Source: Persephonella hydrogeniphila (GTDB lineage Bacteria > Aquificota > Aquificia > Aquificales > Hydrogenothermaceae). From it: a DNA stretch of 64,000 nt. The stretch is taken from contig NZ_OBEI01000001.1 of assembly GCF_900215515.1 (NCBI RefSeq), positions 310,001 through 374,000 on the forward strand, written 5' to 3'. This document shows, piece by piece, positions 3,124 to 8,420 of this stretch (its first letter is position 1; the number at the start of each line of letters is the position of its first letter). The notes under the pieces were generated by a model. The model saw only the letters and a list, made by a program, of their open reading frames with translations. It was not told where the DNA came from and searched no databases. The position numbers and the translations under genes are program-made.

Positions 3124-3142
3124 TTTAGTATTTTATACTAAA
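3124..3142. promoter_or_regulatory. 7-bp inverted repeat TTTAGTA-TTTTA-TACTAAA, candidate operator
   Basis: A perfect 7-5-7 inverted repeat ends five bases before the -35 box of the promoter at 3148. Its centre lies at about -49 relative to the expected transcription start, a position typical of activator sites. No poly-T follows on either strand, so a terminator is unlikely. Confidence 0.45.
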
Positions 3143-3147
3143 AAAAC

Positions 3148-3175
3148 TTGACATTATTTTAATTAGATATATATT
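3148..3175 (+). promoter_or_regulatory. sigma-70-type promoter of the 3223 operon
   Basis: A perfect -35 TTGACA (3148-3153) is followed after 16 bases by TATATT (3170-3175). The expected start is near 3182, about 40 bases before the first ATG of the RAMP/prefoldin-like operon. It is the cleanest promoter in the window. Confidence 0.6.
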
Positions 3176-3222
3176 GTAAGTATATATGTTTAACAAAATA
3201 AATAATAAAGAGGTTAGGAGAA

Positions 3223-3915
3223 ATGGATATTTTACAGCTAAGAGAATTACAGGCTATAAATACGCTTGTATTCGAAACTCTTGGACAACCGGAGAAAGAA
3301 AGAGAATTCAAGCTAAAATCACTGAAAAGATGGGGATTTGATCTTTTGTTAGGTAAAAAAGGAGGAGAAACCACCTATTTTACAGCTGTATCAGGAAAAA
3401 GATCTGTAGGAGAAAAATACACAGAGGATGAAATTTCTTACGAAGTTGAAGAAATTATCCATGAACTACCTAAAAACAAAAAAATATTTGCCCATATAGA
3501 GATGATACAGGGCAGAGCTTATCTAATTGGTGAACTACGGGAGGGAGAAGAAAATATAGAAATTCTCAGAGTTCCTGCAGGATCTATACTACTTGCCTAT
3601 TTCAAAAAACATAAACTTCACAATCTCATTGAGGCATTAAGAAATGTAGGAACAGCCTTAGAACTTGTAAAACAAAGAGGACAGGAAGGAAAACCAGTTT
3701 CTTATGAACAACTGCCTAATGTGGCAAGAAGATTTTTGAGAGGTGCTAAAGACCTCGAAAAAGATGCTGGATTTGGAAGGGTCGCACTTTCATATTGGGG
3801 AGAAAACAAAGATGGAGATGCAAGATTCAGAGTATCCTGGCTCCTTCCAACGATAGCCCTTTTTGATATAAACATAGCAGAAAAAGCAGATAAATTACTT
3901 GCTGCTTTTAAATAA
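3223..3915 (+). CDS. uncharacterised 230-aa protein, first gene of the RAMP/prefoldin-like operon
   Basis: I do not recognise this family. The soluble, mixed alpha/beta product has no signal peptide or membrane segment and no cysteine. Visible features are a GGETTYF stretch near 47-53, a strand segment [18 protein letters not shown] near 88-105, a long helical middle, and a C-terminal part with [20 protein letters not shown] and a hydrophobic end. The ATG at 3223 follows GAGGTTAGGAG, a good ribosome site. The stop is 14 bases before the next gene's preferred start. Its place as first gene behind a strong promoter suggests it works with the RAMP-like and prefoldin-like proteins; this is inference from context only. 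Confidence 0.75.
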
Positions 3916-3929
3916 GGGGGATGGGAGAT

Positions 3930-4652
3930 ATGGAATTTATCTGCTGGACACCTGTTATATTTAGCCGTAGCGGATTCCCAAGAGATGAGGAAGGTAAACC
4001 CTTCCTCCCTAAAAATCTTTTCATAGAGTCTATAACTTCAGCCATAATCTTTTACTACATAAAAAAGGACAGAGAAATAGAAAATAAACTGAGAAATATT
4101 TTATTAAAAGAACCACTAAACATAAAAAATCTCGGCAAAAAAATAAAAGAAGCAGTATTAGATAAATATCCTGTTCTTGACCAGCTCTACATACCAGAAA
4201 AAACCTACATCCCACAAAAATATATAAAAACAGAATATGTAGAGATCTTTGACCTGAAAAAGTGGATAGATATCAAAGGTTTCAAAACAGAAATATTTAA
4301 AGGAACTGTTCCTATAGAAATAAAATCTCCATATATAGAAAAGATAAAAGCTGCTGCTCACTCTTATGCTGAAGCTCTTGCAAAGATTGAGCACTCTTTA
4401 TTAAAGGGTCATCCTTTATCTTCCTACTTTTATGAACCTTTAATCAATGAGATAAAAAAATGGGATATACCTTTAAGGACAGGTATGTGGACTGAAGTTG
4501 CTTTTAGAGGAGATTTGCTGTTCTTCTGGAGGATAAAGGAAGTTCGAGAAAAAATTATGAAAGAACTAAAAACAGATATAAGACCTAGATATGTTCTTTA
4601 TCTTCCAAAAGAAAAACAAACCACAGGATGGACAGAATTAAAAATCAAATAA
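3930..4652 (+). CDS. RAMP-superfamily-like protein resembling CRISPR Csm5 (tentative)
   Basis: The 240-residue product begins with ICWTPVIFSRSG, followed by GKPFLPKNLFIESITSAI. Csm5 and related RAMPs typically start with a TPV(H)IGSG strand and loop and continue with a PY(I)PGSSLKGAI segment; the LPKN motif here would be a degenerate form. The middle is helical, PLRTGMWTEVAF could be the second-domain loop, and the C-terminus PKEKQTTGWTELKIK resembles the GW-containing end of Csm5. The glycine-rich loops are weak and no catalytic histidine stands out. No Cas10, Csm/Cmr subunit or array is in the window. The ATG at 3921 is also possible, but it directly abuts the GGGGG. The family call is an inference from motif patterns. 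Confidence 0.4.
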   Translation: MEFICWTPVIFSRSGFPRDEEGKPFLPKNLFIESITSAIIFYYIKKDREIENKLRNILLKEPLNIKNLGKKIKEAVLDKYPVLDQLYIPEKTYIPQKYIKTEYVEIFDLKKWIDIKGFKTEIFKGTVPIEIKSPYIEKIKAAAHSYAEALAKIEHSLLKGHPLSSYFYEPLINEIKKWDIPLRTGMWTEVAFRGDLLFFWRIKEVREKIMKELKTDIRPRYVLYLPKEKQTTGWTELKIK

Positions 4653-4667
4653 AGGAGGTGATGTACA

Positions 4668-5114
4668 ATGGCAAAAAAAGAGGAGAAAAAAGTTCAACCA
4701 ACAACAGAAGAACTTAGCAGAGAGCTAAGAGGATATATAGCTCAAATTGAAGCTCTCAGGGCAGAAATAGCGGTTATAGATGAAAACATAGCCTCATACA
4801 GAACCGCTATTAAAACTATTAACAACCTTAGAGATCTTGGAAAAGGAAAAAATATCCTCATTCCAATTGGAGCTGGAGCCCAAATAGAGGCGAAAATTGA
4901 AGATCCAGAAAGGGTAGTAGTGAATATAGGTTCTGGAATATCTGCTGAACTTAAAGCTGAAGAAGCCTTAACCCAAATTGCAAAAGAGATAGCATCTCTC
5001 CAAGCATTAAGAAGAACCTTAGAAGAAGCAATAGCAGAAGCTTATGCAAAGACTGAAGAGCTTCTTCAGAAAACAAGAGAGATAGGCAAAGAAGAAGGAA
5101 AATCCTCAAAGTAA
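4668..5114 (+). CDS. prefoldin alpha-like (GimC-type) chaperone subunit
   Basis: The 148-residue protein has the prefoldin-alpha layout: an N-terminal coiled coil (about 14-55), two beta hairpins (about 62-96) and a C-terminal coiled coil (about 97-140). The hairpin phrases ILIPIGAGAQIEAKI and VVVNIGSGISAEL align by eye with the LVPLGGGxxVxAKI and VLVDIGAGVxVE pattern of archaeal alpha subunits. Prefoldin holds unfolded proteins in tentacle-like coiled coils; it is standard in archaea and eukaryotes and uncommon in bacteria. The ATG has AAAGGAGGTGA eight bases upstream. The gene lies 15 bases after the RAMP-like gene and just before a small prefoldin-beta-like ORF. The fold assignment is strong; the client is unknown. 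Confidence 0.75.
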   Translation: MAKKEEKKVQPTTEELSRELRGYIAQIEALRAEIAVIDENIASYRTAIKTINNLRDLGKGKNILIPIGAGAQIEAKIEDPERVVVNIGSGISAELKAEEALTQIAKEIASLQALRRTLEEAIAEAYAKTEELLQKTREIGKEEGKSSK

Positions 5115-5129
5115 GCTGAGGACGAAAAC

Positions 5130-5306
5130 ATGAAAGAAAAAGAAAAAAAACAGATAGAGAAAACCTTAGAACTGATAGAGCAACTGCCAGAAAATAGGAG
5201 GTTTTTTTACAATACGGGAGTTTTAATGATAGAGCTTACAAAAGAGGAAGCTGTTAAACTCCTTAAAAAAGAACTGGAAGGGCTGGGAGGAAACACACAT
5301 AGCTAA
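5130..5306 (+). CDS. 58-aa prefoldin-beta-like mini-protein
   Basis: ATG at 5130, stop TAA at 5304-5306, with GAGGA seven bases upstream of the start. The translation has a charged helix (1-18), then EQLPENRRFFYNTGVLMIEL and TKEEAVKLLKKELE. The central block resembles the beta hairpin of archaeal prefoldin beta (pattern LPDDAxVYKTVGxLxVxxTKEEAxxxLKEKxE). Both coiled-coil arms are much shorter than in the usual ~115-residue subunit, so it would be a minimal hairpin partner or a remnant. It follows the prefoldin-alpha-like gene by 15 bases and ends inside a terminator hairpin. The coding call rests on the ribosome site, position and motif; the function is inference. Confidence 0.6.
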   Translation: MKEKEKKQIEKTLELIEQLPENRRFFYNTGVLMIELTKEEAVKLLKKELEGLGGNTHS

Positions 5307-5325
5307 AGGGGCTTTATGCCCCTTT
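5305..5325 (+). terminator. hairpin after the prefoldin-like genes
   Basis: AAAGGGGC-TTTAT-GCCCCTTT, an 8-bp perfect stem with a 5-base loop. The tract after it is CCAATAAAA rather than poly-T, so termination may be partial. The YfdX gene downstream has its own ribosome site but no clear promoter, so some read-through is likely. Confidence 0.55.
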
Positions 5326-5353: not shown

Positions 5354-6220
5354 ATGAGGGTATTACTATCTATTCTTTTGGGAGTGTTTATTATCATAGG
5401 AGTTTCTTCTGCGAAAGAAGAGAGTGCACAATCTCTTATAGAAAGCTCAGGAAAAAGAACAACAGAAAAAGTTCAAGCCAGAGAAATGTCAAAAGTTATA
5501 AAAGAAGCTGTAAATGTCTACGCTAAGGGAAATAGGGTACTTTTTCTTTTAAATCACAATAAGATAGAAGAGGCAAAAAAAGTTCTTGATCAGCTTGTTA
5601 AAGAATTGGACAAGCTTTCTACACAGTACAAAAAAATGGACAGACTTCCTATCGATGCCGTTATAACAGAAATAAGTGGAATTACAGACATAAAGGAAGC
5701 TGAAAAATTAGCAAAAGAAGCTAAAAAAGCTGTAGAGGATAATGATTTCATTAAAGCAAGATTTATACTAAACTCTTTGAGAGATGAGATACAGATTGAA
5801 ACTTTCTATCTTCCACTGTCTTTATACACTGAAGCTGTGAAACTGGCTCAAAAACTTCTCAAAGAAGGAAAAGTAAAAGATGCTATTGCACAGCTTCAGG
5901 TAGCTATAGGACTTGTAGAAGTTGAAACTACCATAATACCAAAACCTCTTGCTATAGCCTCATTACTGGTTGAAGATGCATCAAAAGCATTTAAGAAAAA
6001 TCCGGAAAAAGCTTTGAAGCTGTTAGATGAAGCAAAGAGACAGATAAAACTTGCAAAAGTACTTGGATATATAAAAACAGAAAAAGATATTTCTCCTCTC
6101 ATAGCACAGATAGAAAAGTTAGAGAAAGAGATCAAAGAAAAAGCAGGACGTAAGGAACATTTCAAAAAAGTGTTTGAAAACATAGAAAAAGTTAGAGAAA
6201 AAGCTACACAAACAAGATAG
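5354..6220 (+). CDS. YfdX-family periplasmic protein
   Basis: The 288-residue protein starts with a signal peptide (hydrophobic core 4-18, likely cut after VSSA near 20). The mature part is almost all helical and carries the features of the YfdX family (PF10938): LPIDAVITEISGITDIKEAEKLAKEA, then FIKARFILNSLRDEIQIET, then YLPLSLYTEAVKLAQKLLKEGK. E. coli YfdX is a periplasmic protein linked to acid and drug stress, with reported chaperone-like activity; its reaction is not settled. GGAGG lies before the ATG. It heads a four-gene group ending in the histone-fold protein. The family is clear; the role here is inferred to be envelope stress or folding. Confidence 0.8.
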   Translation: MRVLLSILLGVFIIIGVSSAKEESAQSLIESSGKRTTEKVQAREMSKVIKEAVNVYAKGNRVLFLLNHNKIEEAKKVLDQLVKELDKLSTQYKKMDRLPIDAVITEISGITDIKEAEKLAKEAKKAVEDNDFIKARFILNSLRDEIQIETFYLPLSLYTEAVKLAQKLLKEGKVKDAIAQLQVAIGLVEVETTIIPKPLAIASLLVEDASKAFKKNPEKALKLLDEAKRQIKLAKVLGYIKTEKDISPLIAQIEKLEKEIKEKAGRKEHFKKVFENIEKVREKATQTR

Positions 6221-6300: not shown

Positions 6301-6780
6301 ATGAACAGGGTATTTCTGTTTTTTTTAACATCAGTAGTAGCTATCATTTTAGGATGGGGAGTAGGTGGATATATAACCTACAACAAAACAATTGAAGCTG
6401 TAGGCAAAATTCCAGCTTCTCCCATAGTAGTAAAAACTGTTTATGATAGAAAAAATCATACTGTAGTTTTCTCTGTTCTAAATACAGGAACTCTTCCTTT
6501 AACTGTAGTGTCTGAATCCTTTGTATTCAAACCGGGTAAGGAAAGTGCAGAAAAACAGTACAAAATGGAAAATATTCCTGCTCATATAACTCTTATTCCT
6601 TTAGGTATAACTACAGTTAGCTTAAAGCTAAAAAAAGGTTCTCAAGAGTTGAAATCAGGAGATATAGTGATGGCGACTCTACATTATGTACATCCCTTAT
6701 CTGATGATATATACACTGTAAGCCATAAATTTGAGTTTACAGGTAAGCCACAAGAAACTCCTCTAAAAAAAGTTAAATAA
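6301..6780 (+). CDS. membrane-anchored extracytoplasmic protein, unknown function
   Basis: Unrecognised, 159 residues. One N-terminal membrane segment (about 4-25, ending GWGVGGYI) is followed by a single beta-rich domain with short alternating strands such as TVVFSVLNTGTLPLTVV and a lysine-rich tail. The NTGTLPLTV phrase resembles Ig-like domains that pack beside membranes. GGAGG precedes the ATG at 6301, and the stop is 9 bases before the next gene. Position between YfdX and a four-helix membrane protein suggests an envelope complex. Known function: none I can name. Confidence 0.65.
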   Translation: MNRVFLFFLTSVVAIILGWGVGGYITYNKTIEAVGKIPASPIVVKTVYDRKNHTVVFSVLNTGTLPLTVVSESFVFKPGKESAEKQYKMENIPAHITLIPLGITTVSLKLKKGSQELKSGDIVMATLHYVHPLSDDIYTVSHKFEFTGKPQETPLKKVK

Positions 6781-6789
6781 GGAGGAAAA

Positions 6790-7362
6790 ATGATGAATTG
6801 GGAAAAAATTGCATGGTGGACATTTTGGATTACATTTGGTTTTTTAATTTTTTTGTTGTTCTATGGTTTAACAATATCATTTATAACAGCTTCATCTGTA
6901 GAGATAGCTTATTTACTTGGTTTAATTTCTTTTTTACTGTTGGGGAACAGACTTCTTTTCGGATACGGTTGGCTTTCTAACCTATTAGATAATGTTCTAA
7001 GTGTTAAAGAAGTTGATTTTTTGCAAAAAGAAAAAGTTAAAGAGAGATTAGAAAAAAGAAATTTTGAGCCTGAAGAAACGTTGCAGGAGCTCTCTTTCAA
7101 AGCTTTAATTATGCTCCTATTAAAAGACTTAGATTATTATAGATACACTTACTATGGTATATTTTTATTGTTGACATTGATCACATTAATGGCAAAACTC
7201 AACCTATTAGGGGAGTTCATTATAGGTAAATATATAGAAGGTGTTTTCTGGGGTGCTGCCACAATAACATTTTTTGTATGGGGTCTTGAACAGCTTTCTA
7301 AAGTATCTTTTGTAGAGTATAATCTAATTGGAATTAAAGAAAATAACAAAAAGGAGGAGTAA
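6790..7362 (+). CDS. four-helix integral membrane protein, unknown function
   Basis: Unrecognised, 190 residues. Two hydrophobic helices lie near 7-30 and 35-58. A charged cytoplasmic loop follows (about 65-105, many Lys and Glu), then two more helices (about 115-135 and 145-165), then a lysine-rich C-terminus. No catalytic motif was noticed. GGAGG lies upstream; either ATG 6790 or the adjacent ATG 6793 could be used. The stop is two bases before the histone-fold gene's start, suggesting translational coupling. Could be a small channel or scaffold; no evidence chooses between them. Confidence 0.65.
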   Translation: MMNWEKIAWWTFWITFGFLIFLLFYGLTISFITASSVEIAYLLGLISFLLLGNRLLFGYGWLSNLLDNVLSVKEVDFLQKEKVKERLEKRNFEPEETLQELSFKALIMLLLKDLDYYRYTYYGIFLLLTLITLMAKLNLLGEFIIGKYIEGVFWGAATITFFVWGLEQLSKVSFVEYNLIGIKENNKKEE

Positions 7363-7363
7363 T

Positions 7364-7813
7364 ATGCCTGTAGTTGGAGCTTCAAAATTAGAAATACTGA
7401 TGAGGAAAGCAGCGAGTCTGGATATTGATAAAAACAAAGCAAAGGAGATCACAGACATCGTTGAAAAAAAACTTTACGACCTACTTTTGATAGGAGAAAG
7501 AAACGCAAACTATAACGGAAGAGAAGTTATCTGGGAGTCTGATGTTCCACTTACAAAAGGTTTTTTAGAATCGATGCAAAAGTTCAGAAAGTTAGAAGAA
7601 GAGATTGCTGTAGAAGATGTATTAAACTTTCTGGCAACAATGCCCCCACTTAAATACCCTTTAGAGGCTGAGCTTGAGAAAAGACTTCCAGAAATAGTAG
7701 GAACTCTCATATATGTACTTGCACATCTTATAAAAGAAGTGGCTCCAGAAAGTAGAAAACCTTCTTCAGAAGATATAGAGAAAGCAGGGAAAATTTTAGA
7801 TCTCACAATGTAA
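7364..7813 (+). CDS. DUF1931 bacterial histone-fold protein (Aq_328-like)
   Basis: The 149-residue product begins MPVVGASKLEILMRKAASLD and continues with ERNANYNGREVIWESDVP, features I recognise from the DUF1931 family. The crystal structure of the Aquifex aeolicus member Aq_328 showed two fused histone folds in one chain. Such proteins might bind DNA, but their role is not established. An upstream in-frame start at 7328 lies inside the preceding gene; the ATG at 7364 has AAGGAGGAG at ideal spacing and matches the family N-terminus. A terminator hairpin follows. It is the last gene of the YfdX group, an odd partner for periplasmic proteins. Confidence 0.85.
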   Translation: MPVVGASKLEILMRKAASLDIDKNKAKEITDIVEKKLYDLLLIGERNANYNGREVIWESDVPLTKGFLESMQKFRKLEEEIAVEDVLNFLATMPPLKYPLEAELEKRLPEIVGTLIYVLAHLIKEVAPESRKPSSEDIEKAGKILDLTM

Positions 7814-7846: not shown

Positions 7847-7886
7847 ATAATATATAAAATTATATTCTTGTATGGGAGGTCATATC

Positions 7887-8420
7887 TTGTTAAAAGTAGC
7901 AGAGAAGATTATTGAAAGATTACTGTGGGAAAGCAGATTTATGATATTTCTTGCAGTTATAGCAAGTGTTCTAGCTGCATTTGTTCTTGTCCTGATTGGT
8001 ACATACGACATTTATATCGTAATAAAAGATGCTACACATATGTTTTCTTCCAAAGAATACTTTAAAGAGTTCCATAAAGAAGCAATAAAGAATATTGTAT
8101 CTGCTGTAGATGTATACCTGATAGCTACTGTTTTACTTATTTTTGGACTTGGACTTTACGAACTTTTTATCTCAAAAATAGACCCTATGGAAAAAGATAC
8201 AAAATCATCAAAAATACTTGTTGTCCATACCTTAGACCAGCTTAAAGAAAAACTTGCAAAAGTTATTCTTATGGTTCTTATAGTTACATTCTTTAAATAT
8301 GCTATAGAGTTTAAGTACGAAGATATAAAAAATCTACTTTTCCTCAGTATAGGCGTTTTCCTGATTGCTCTATCTATATATTTTATGCATAAGGGACATG
8401 ATCACAAAGAAAATCATTAA
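7887..8420 (+). CDS. UPF0114 (YqhA-family) membrane protein
   Basis: The 177-residue protein has four membrane helices (about 17-40, 65-92, 115-138, 145-165). It shows the UPF0114 pattern: WESRF near the start, a D-x-Y-L-I-A helix, LLIFGLGLYELFIS, and an LDQLKEKLAKVILMVLIV stretch. The function of YqhA proteins is unknown. An ATG at 7872 is in frame, but its next bases (GGGAGGT) form the ribosome site for TTG 7887, six bases further on, so TTG is preferred. The gene overlaps the end of ubiD by 4 bases, tail to tail, and lies after a terminator, so it is probably transcribed on its own. Confidence 0.8.
   Translation: MLKVAEKIIERLLWESRFMIFLAVIASVLAAFVLVLIGTYDIYIVIKDATHMFSSKEYFKEFHKEAIKNIVSAVDVYLIATVLLIFGLGLYELFISKIDPMEKDTKSSKILVVHTLDQLKEKLAKVILMVLIVTFFKYAIEFKYEDIKNLLFLSIGVFLIALSIYFMHKGHDHKENH

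Follow-up and report, generated by a model that had tools for sequence, protein, structure and literature searches.

The window analysed here is a stretch of 64,000 nucleotides from Persephonella hydrogeniphila (contig NZ_OBEI01000001.1, positions 310,001 to 374,000 of the forward strand), in which four closely spaced genes form an operon on the + strand. The genes encode, in order, a protein of 230 amino acids (aa) belonging to UPF0128/TIGR00703 (3223-3915), a RAMP protein with the fold of Csm5 (243 aa from 3921, or 240 aa from an ATG at 3930, to 4652), a gamma-prefoldin-like prefoldin of the alpha class (148 aa, 4668-5114), and a small prefoldin of the beta class, called mini-beta here (58 aa, 5130-5306). 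With the ATG at 3930 taken as the RAMP start, the intergenic gaps are 14-15 bases, as a first-pass annotation of the sequence had reported, and the RAMP of relatives likewise begins at the position matching this ATG. The strong promoter described in that annotation is borne out by a promoter scan, in which the sigma-70-type sequence TTGACA-16-TATATT (3148-3175, +) scores 11/12, and the promoter is kept in relatives.

The four-gene order recurs in Hydrogenothermaceae, Desulfurobacteriaceae and some WOR-3. Because of this recurrence across families, and because the ratio of nonsynonymous to synonymous substitution rates (dN/dS) is 0.01-0.10 in each of the four, the operon cannot reasonably be put down to chance. 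Taken gene by gene, the ratio is 0.01-0.03 for UPF0128, 0.03-0.08 for RAMP, 0.02-0.05 for the prefoldin and 0.07-0.10 for mini-beta, values that point to strong purifying selection on all four. The conserved core is the UPF0128 gene with the RAMP gene, to which the prefoldin pair has been added in certain lineages only, namely Aquificota and some WOR-3. It is with high confidence that this core is regarded as a CRISPR-independent module of vent thermophiles, co-inherited even when unlinked and kept by purifying selection, and the module is very probably both real and undescribed. No known kind of system has this composition, its parts belonging to or deriving from known folds, and the coupling of UPF0128 with a RAMP is reported here.

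Linkage and co-inheritance

Among 56 loci surveyed from named genomes, UPF0128 lies directly before RAMP in 42, and in one more the UPF0128 gene is cut by the contig edge (approximately 43/56). The linked pair is found in Hydrogenothermaceae, Desulfurobacteriaceae, WOR-3, Thermodesulfatator, Nautiliaceae, Nitratiruptor and other Campylobacterota, and metagenome-assembled genomes (MAGs) of Bacteroidota/Chlorobiota, and the distance from the UPF0128 stop to the RAMP start is between -4 and +26 nucleotides in nearly all loci. The prefoldins follow the pair in 26 loci, all of them in Aquificota or WOR-3. One Nautiliaceae MAG encodes, after the pair, a protein with a nitrogenase iron-molybdenum cofactor (Nitro_FeMo-Co) domain (L095:3762-4142).

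The two core genes also tend to be present in, or absent from, the same genomes. In Campylobacterota, the 9 of 249 genomes that carry UPF0128 are the same 9 that carry a full-length RAMP (Fisher p 1e-16). In a set of 147 genomes of the WOR-3 phylum, 12 carry RAMP and 13 carry UPF0128, and 10 of the 15 carriers have both (p 2e-11); among 61 genomes of the Aquificota order, the two are shared by 24 of 28 carriers (p 1e-12). UPF0128 and gamma-prefoldin co-occur in 25/25 cases in the Aquificota set, also when they are unlinked. Genomes in which the pair co-occurs unlinked include G040, G042, G044, G046, G063, G064, G066, G073, G354 and G355. In the genomes of one group (g12), RAMP, UPF0128 and the prefoldin pair lie on separate contigs, all being present in 5/7, and several genomes of the WOR-3 phylum have RAMP and UPF0128 on separate contigs. 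The independent phyla and the unlinked cases argue against hitch-hiking.

The first-pass annotation had guessed that the four genes are one functional unit, and had named scattering of the genes in relatives as evidence to the contrary. In relatives the genes show no random scattering, and the guess is largely right. It stands for UPF0128 and RAMP, which are adjacent in most loci, over several phyla, and co-occur when unlinked; it has to be narrowed for the prefoldins, whose membership is confined to Aquificota and some WOR-3.

Two cases of RAMP decay fit a partial dispensability. In G025, RAMP has shrunk to an open reading frame (ORF) for a 65-aa N-terminal remnant (L174:4068-4265) between intact UPF0128 and gamma-prefoldin genes. 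In G048, it has a large internal deletion, residues ~112-218 being missing (L183:2751-3131), and neither UPF0128 nor gamma-prefoldin was found in that genome.

The UPF0128 protein

The 230-aa protein, described in the first-pass annotation as being of no known family, matches PF03673 (UPF0128; E 1.8e-95, 319 bits against a cut-off of 21) and TIGR00703 (E 2.9e-96, 321 bits against 155.4), both over the full length. By these profile matches it is assigned to UPF0128/TIGR00703, a known family without an assigned function. Its AlphaFold model has a mean predicted local distance difference test score (pLDDT) of 92.5 and finds no structural match at E<=0.001 in PDB or in BFVD (viral), so that the modelled fold is apparently new. 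Weak resemblances to chlorite dismutase, PilM and antibody folds (template modelling score, TM, <0.25) were rejected, as was the idea that UPF0128 is a second RAMP, for which hhalign to Csm5 gives just 0.1%. There is no PADLOC match and no PHROG family.

In the open paper library, no paper mentioning UPF0128, TIGR00703 or MJ1463 (presumably the locus number of the M. jannaschii UPF0128) was found. The present association gives a first functional context to a family whose predicted fold matched no solved structure here, and likewise to bacterial gamma-prefoldins. The mean identity among relatives is 68% for UPF0128 versus 51% for RAMP. Among 14 control genomes, UPF0128 is present in one, that of M. 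jannaschii. Some g12 genomes have a second UPF0128 paralogue, which has diverged (~44% identity with the window protein) and is unlinked to RAMP (L056 in G042, L058 in G040).

The RAMP protein and its relation to Csm5

The suggestion of the first-pass annotation that the 240-aa protein is Csm5/RAMP-like holds by both fold and profile. The AlphaFold model, made from an alignment of 19 relatives, has a mean pLDDT of 93.2, and all 16 of its Foldseek matches in PDB at E<=0.001 are Csm5 chains, the identity of which is mostly taken from chain lengths and letters in the entries for Csm complexes (6ldn is named outright). The best match is 6o7e_Y, with E 1e-7 and a TM of 0.64 by query length. By hhalign, a 37-sequence RAMP profile matches a 21-sequence profile of Aquificota Csm5 over residues 17-243 with a probability of 97.2% (E 4.2e-11), while a Csm4 profile, used as negative control, gives 0.3%. 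TIGR01899 (Csm5) is the family matched by most RAMP relatives (9/37), all matches being weak (best E 2.9e-5); the RAMPs of G048 and G038, for example, score 23.7 and 19.2 bits, the cut-off being 38.3. The window RAMP itself has no match to TIGR01899, let alone one above the curated cut-off, and none in Pfam, NCBIfam, PADLOC or PHROG; a search of PDB by sequence only gives weak Csm5 matches (E 0.11 and 0.86). The Csm5 fold is assigned on the basis of three independent tests, namely the structural matches of the AlphaFold model in PDB, the profile-profile match and the sub-threshold TIGR01899 hits.

The window RAMP resembles Csm5 (a Cas7-group RAMP of type III-A) in its fold and in a profile match over nearly the full chain, and it has an N-terminal 'P-x-IPG'-like and a C-terminal 'RxG...GW' motif; the C-terminal glycine-motif region is retained. 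In contrast to Csm5, which has ~300-460 aa, it has 240 aa and lacks an N-terminal insertion of ~80 residues, falls below the TIGR01899 cut-off, and has neither the KGA[IVL]R motif nor the RAMP histidine. Neither this motif nor the histidine after strand 1 (P-x-H-I/V-G) occurs in any of the 37 RAMP-like sequences, whereas looser patterns find the glycine/basic motif in 20/21 and the histidine motif in 16/21 of the Aquificota Csm5 sequences. The histidine has been suggested to be the catalytic residue that RAMPs had ancestrally (PMC3150331). Since it is absent, RNA cleavage by that mechanism appears unlikely.

Independence from CRISPR

The window RAMP is a diverged relative of Csm5 and not a CRISPR Csm5, because the motif and the histidine are gone, it has no cas genes beside it, and it occurs without correlation to type III Csm5. 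The inspected loci lie among ordinary chromosomal genes, none of them cas genes, and Cas10 and Csm2-4, the usual company of Csm5, are missing. Over 61 genomes, the presence of RAMP is independent of that of Csm5 (p=1). For example, among complete genomes, G005 has RAMP and no Csm5 match, and G009 shows the reverse; G011 is another RAMP carrier with no Csm5 match. Type III loci are present elsewhere in many carriers, including the window genome, whose Csm5 genes are on other contigs.

A role in defence or as a CRISPR accessory finds no support in Csm5 co-occurrence, PADLOC or the gene neighbourhood. A mobile or viral origin was rejected as well, for searches of viral contigs and plasmids yielded no relatives of the module, and neither UPF0128 nor RAMP has a PHROG family.

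The prefoldin pair

The 148-aa protein matches PF02996 with E 6e-26, and its closest relative in PDB is 6vy1, 'Prefoldin subunit alpha 2' (E 6e-31, gapless over 129 residues), which we take to be the gamma-prefoldin of M. jannaschii. The match to prefoldin subunit alpha 2zdi (E 5e-10) is ~20 orders of magnitude behind. The protein is thus of the alpha class, as the first-pass annotation had it, but on these matches it is nearer to gamma-prefoldin than to alpha-prefoldin. The M. jannaschii gamma-prefoldin forms filaments and has a chaperone function (PMC4895442). Unlike it, the window protein is bacterial and shares an operon with a mini prefoldin-beta; by its likeness it may form filaments.

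The 58-aa ORF was rightly called prefoldin-beta-like: it matches PF01920 (Prefoldin_2) with 28.4 bits against a cut-off of 27.6, over positions 24-74 of the 106 of the profile. Against TIGR02338 (gimC_beta) it reaches 23 bits, the cut-off being 73. It consists of the beta-hairpin region with very short helices, the coiled-coil arms of the full-length protein of ~110 aa being missing, and it is present at the same place in relatives. In the PADLOC scan, mini-beta has no match and the prefoldin gives coiled-coil noise only. With alpha-class and beta-class genes side by side, the pair resembles the archaeal/eukaryotic prefoldin hexamer (2 alpha + 4 beta). It differs from it in that the beta partner has ~50-80 aa in Hydrogenothermaceae and lacks the long coiled-coil tentacles; the g12 form has 90 aa.

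Proposed mechanism and rival explanations

The carriers most likely live at high temperature in marine vents. In Campylobacterota, reverse gyrase scores above the cut-off in 7/9 carriers versus 6/240 non-carriers (p 5e-9).

The mechanism that may be proposed is a CRISPR-independent RNA-binding complex of thermophiles which does not cleave RNA and is co-expressed with a chaperone; this is possible, and is put forward tentatively. The RAMP and UPF0128, its obligate partner, would bind single-stranded RNA, probably at 3' ends. RNA binding is suggested by the RAMP fold and motifs, a 3'-end preference by the position of Csm5, which caps the 3' end of the CRISPR RNA in Csm complexes, and the partnership by co-inheritance and translational coupling. 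The RAMP would bind RNA without cutting it, as the loss of the RAMP histidine implies. The complex might then protect RNA at high temperature, or pass it to housekeeping exonucleases, by analogy with Csm5, which brings in PNPase and RNase R and stimulates both (PMC9762709). In Aquificota and some WOR-3, the gamma-prefoldin would self-assemble and act as a holdase on proteins unfolded by heat, and mini-beta, supplying the beta-barrel contact only, may cap or size its oligomers, as its truncated arms and the analogy to engineered capping variants of gamma-prefoldin filaments (PMC4895442) suggest. Co-expression would make of the operon a heat-adaptation unit for both RNA and protein. Any mechanistic link between the RNA half and the chaperone half is conjectural.

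In wider terms, the module may be an undescribed RNA-handling complex of thermophiles, in which an exapted or ancestral Csm5-type RAMP is joined to a new-fold UPF0128, free of CRISPR and, in Aquificota, tied to a scaffold of prefoldin; this reading is almost as likely as not. To our knowledge, nearly all RAMP proteins described so far belong to CRISPR effectors. If the reading is correct, the module would be a ribonucleoprotein of the cell with no immune role, built on the fold of a CRISPR effector, and a widespread, slowly evolving, CRISPR-free protein of Csm5 fold that has an obligate partner would reveal a role of such folds outside or before immunity, and bear directly on how class 1 effectors arose. 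The two-gene pair of Nautilia-type or Persephonella-type bacteria is small enough for expression and testing.

Several observations weigh against the proposed mechanism. The whole module is lacking in many thermophiles, including family f2 (presumably Aquificaceae-type) and several Hydrogenothermaceae genera, so that it is not essential to thermophily and would be an optional adaptation. The isoelectric point (pI) of RAMP is 9.3 in the window, with a median of 8.3 across loci, but it ranges from 5.7 to 9.6, and a basic surface is thus not universal. The PNPase-recruiting segment of the S. epidermidis Csm5 is a disordered region. The Fisher tests count related genomes as independent, which inflates the p values given above. 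Moreover, no PF02996 prefoldin was found in the tested carriers of Campylobacterota, Bacteroidota and Thermodesulfatator, and the chaperone is therefore not required by the core.

This last observation, together with the separation of the prefoldin pair from UPF0128 and RAMP in g12 genomes, favours the explanation that the Aquificota promoter serves two separate functions, an RNA function of UPF0128-RAMP and an unrelated gamma-prefoldin/mini-beta chaperone for the same hot lifestyle, with no mechanistic link. Such a division is a real possibility, if not a probable one, for UPF0128 and gamma-prefoldin occur together throughout the Aquificota set, unlinked cases included, and M. jannaschii has UPF0128 as well as gamma-prefoldin (PMC4895442). 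Alternatively, UPF0128 might be the working part, a new-fold enzyme or ligand binder, with the RAMP exapted as a protein partner or scaffold having no RNA role. The far higher conservation of UPF0128, its presence in M. jannaschii, the retention of UPF0128 and prefoldins in G025 after the loss of RAMP, and the variable pI of RAMP all speak for it, but it is considered unlikely in view of the strong purifying selection on RAMP, the retained C-terminal glycine-motif region, and the fact that RAMP folds elsewhere bind RNA.

The two explanations that remain within immunity start from the Csm5 ancestry or fold. An antiviral defence module that stands alone and descends from type III CRISPR would also account for the patchy distribution and the apparent horizontal transfer between phyla. 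It is nevertheless improbable, since PADLOC gives nothing beyond coiled-coil noise, the neighbours are ordinary, viral contigs and plasmids yield no match, the very low dN/dS of UPF0128 is unlike that of arms-race genes, and both the linked prefoldins and the correlation with reverse gyrase suggest a tie to temperature. That the RAMP is an accessory subunit acting in trans on host type III complexes agrees with the type III loci found elsewhere in many carriers, the window genome included; it is most improbable given the independence from Csm5, the carriers without any Csm5 match and the loss from RAMP of the N-terminal-region motifs conserved in Csm5.

Control region and downstream genes

Directly 5' of the -35 box lies a palindrome, TTTAG-N9-CTAAA (3124-3142, +), which is a candidate operator. 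Palindrome and promoter are kept 5' of UPF0128 across Hydrogenothermaceae. With one mismatch allowed, the bare palindrome occurs in the window at chance level, but the composite of palindrome and CTTGACA has a single match in the window genome, at the operon, and also occurs once 5' of UPF0128 in nine other genomes of the same genus. A regulon search with the composite of operator and promoter gave no convincing second site in Hydrogenothermaceae. As the composite is unique per genome and located at UPF0128, a dedicated or self-acting regulator is plausible from the sequence.

A hairpin, GGGGC-TTTAT-GCCCC (5307-5323, +; -12.9 kcal/mol), follows mini-beta and may be a terminator or an attenuator. 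It was missed by the terminator scan, and its sequence is not kept in relatives, so that the genes that follow may or may not be co-transcribed; no known structured RNA was found in the operon. The first of these genes (5354-6220, +) encodes a YfdX-domain protein (PF10938, E 1.8e-21), a frequent 3' neighbour (15 loci) that is probably auxiliary. Two conserved neighbours come next, a membrane-anchored protein without a significant family match (6301-6780, +; 17 loci including Desulfurobacteriaceae and WOR-3) and a membrane protein without a Pfam match (6790-7362, +; 15 loci). These two membrane genes (6301-7362) come after the operon in Hydrogenothermaceae, Desulfurobacteriaceae and WOR-3; in L113, from a WOR-3 MAG, the first of the two proteins is encoded ahead of UPF0128. 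Shortly 3' of them is a gene for a DUF1931 (PF09123) protein at 7328-7813, which is adjoined by a gene for a UPF0114 membrane protein at 7872-8420.

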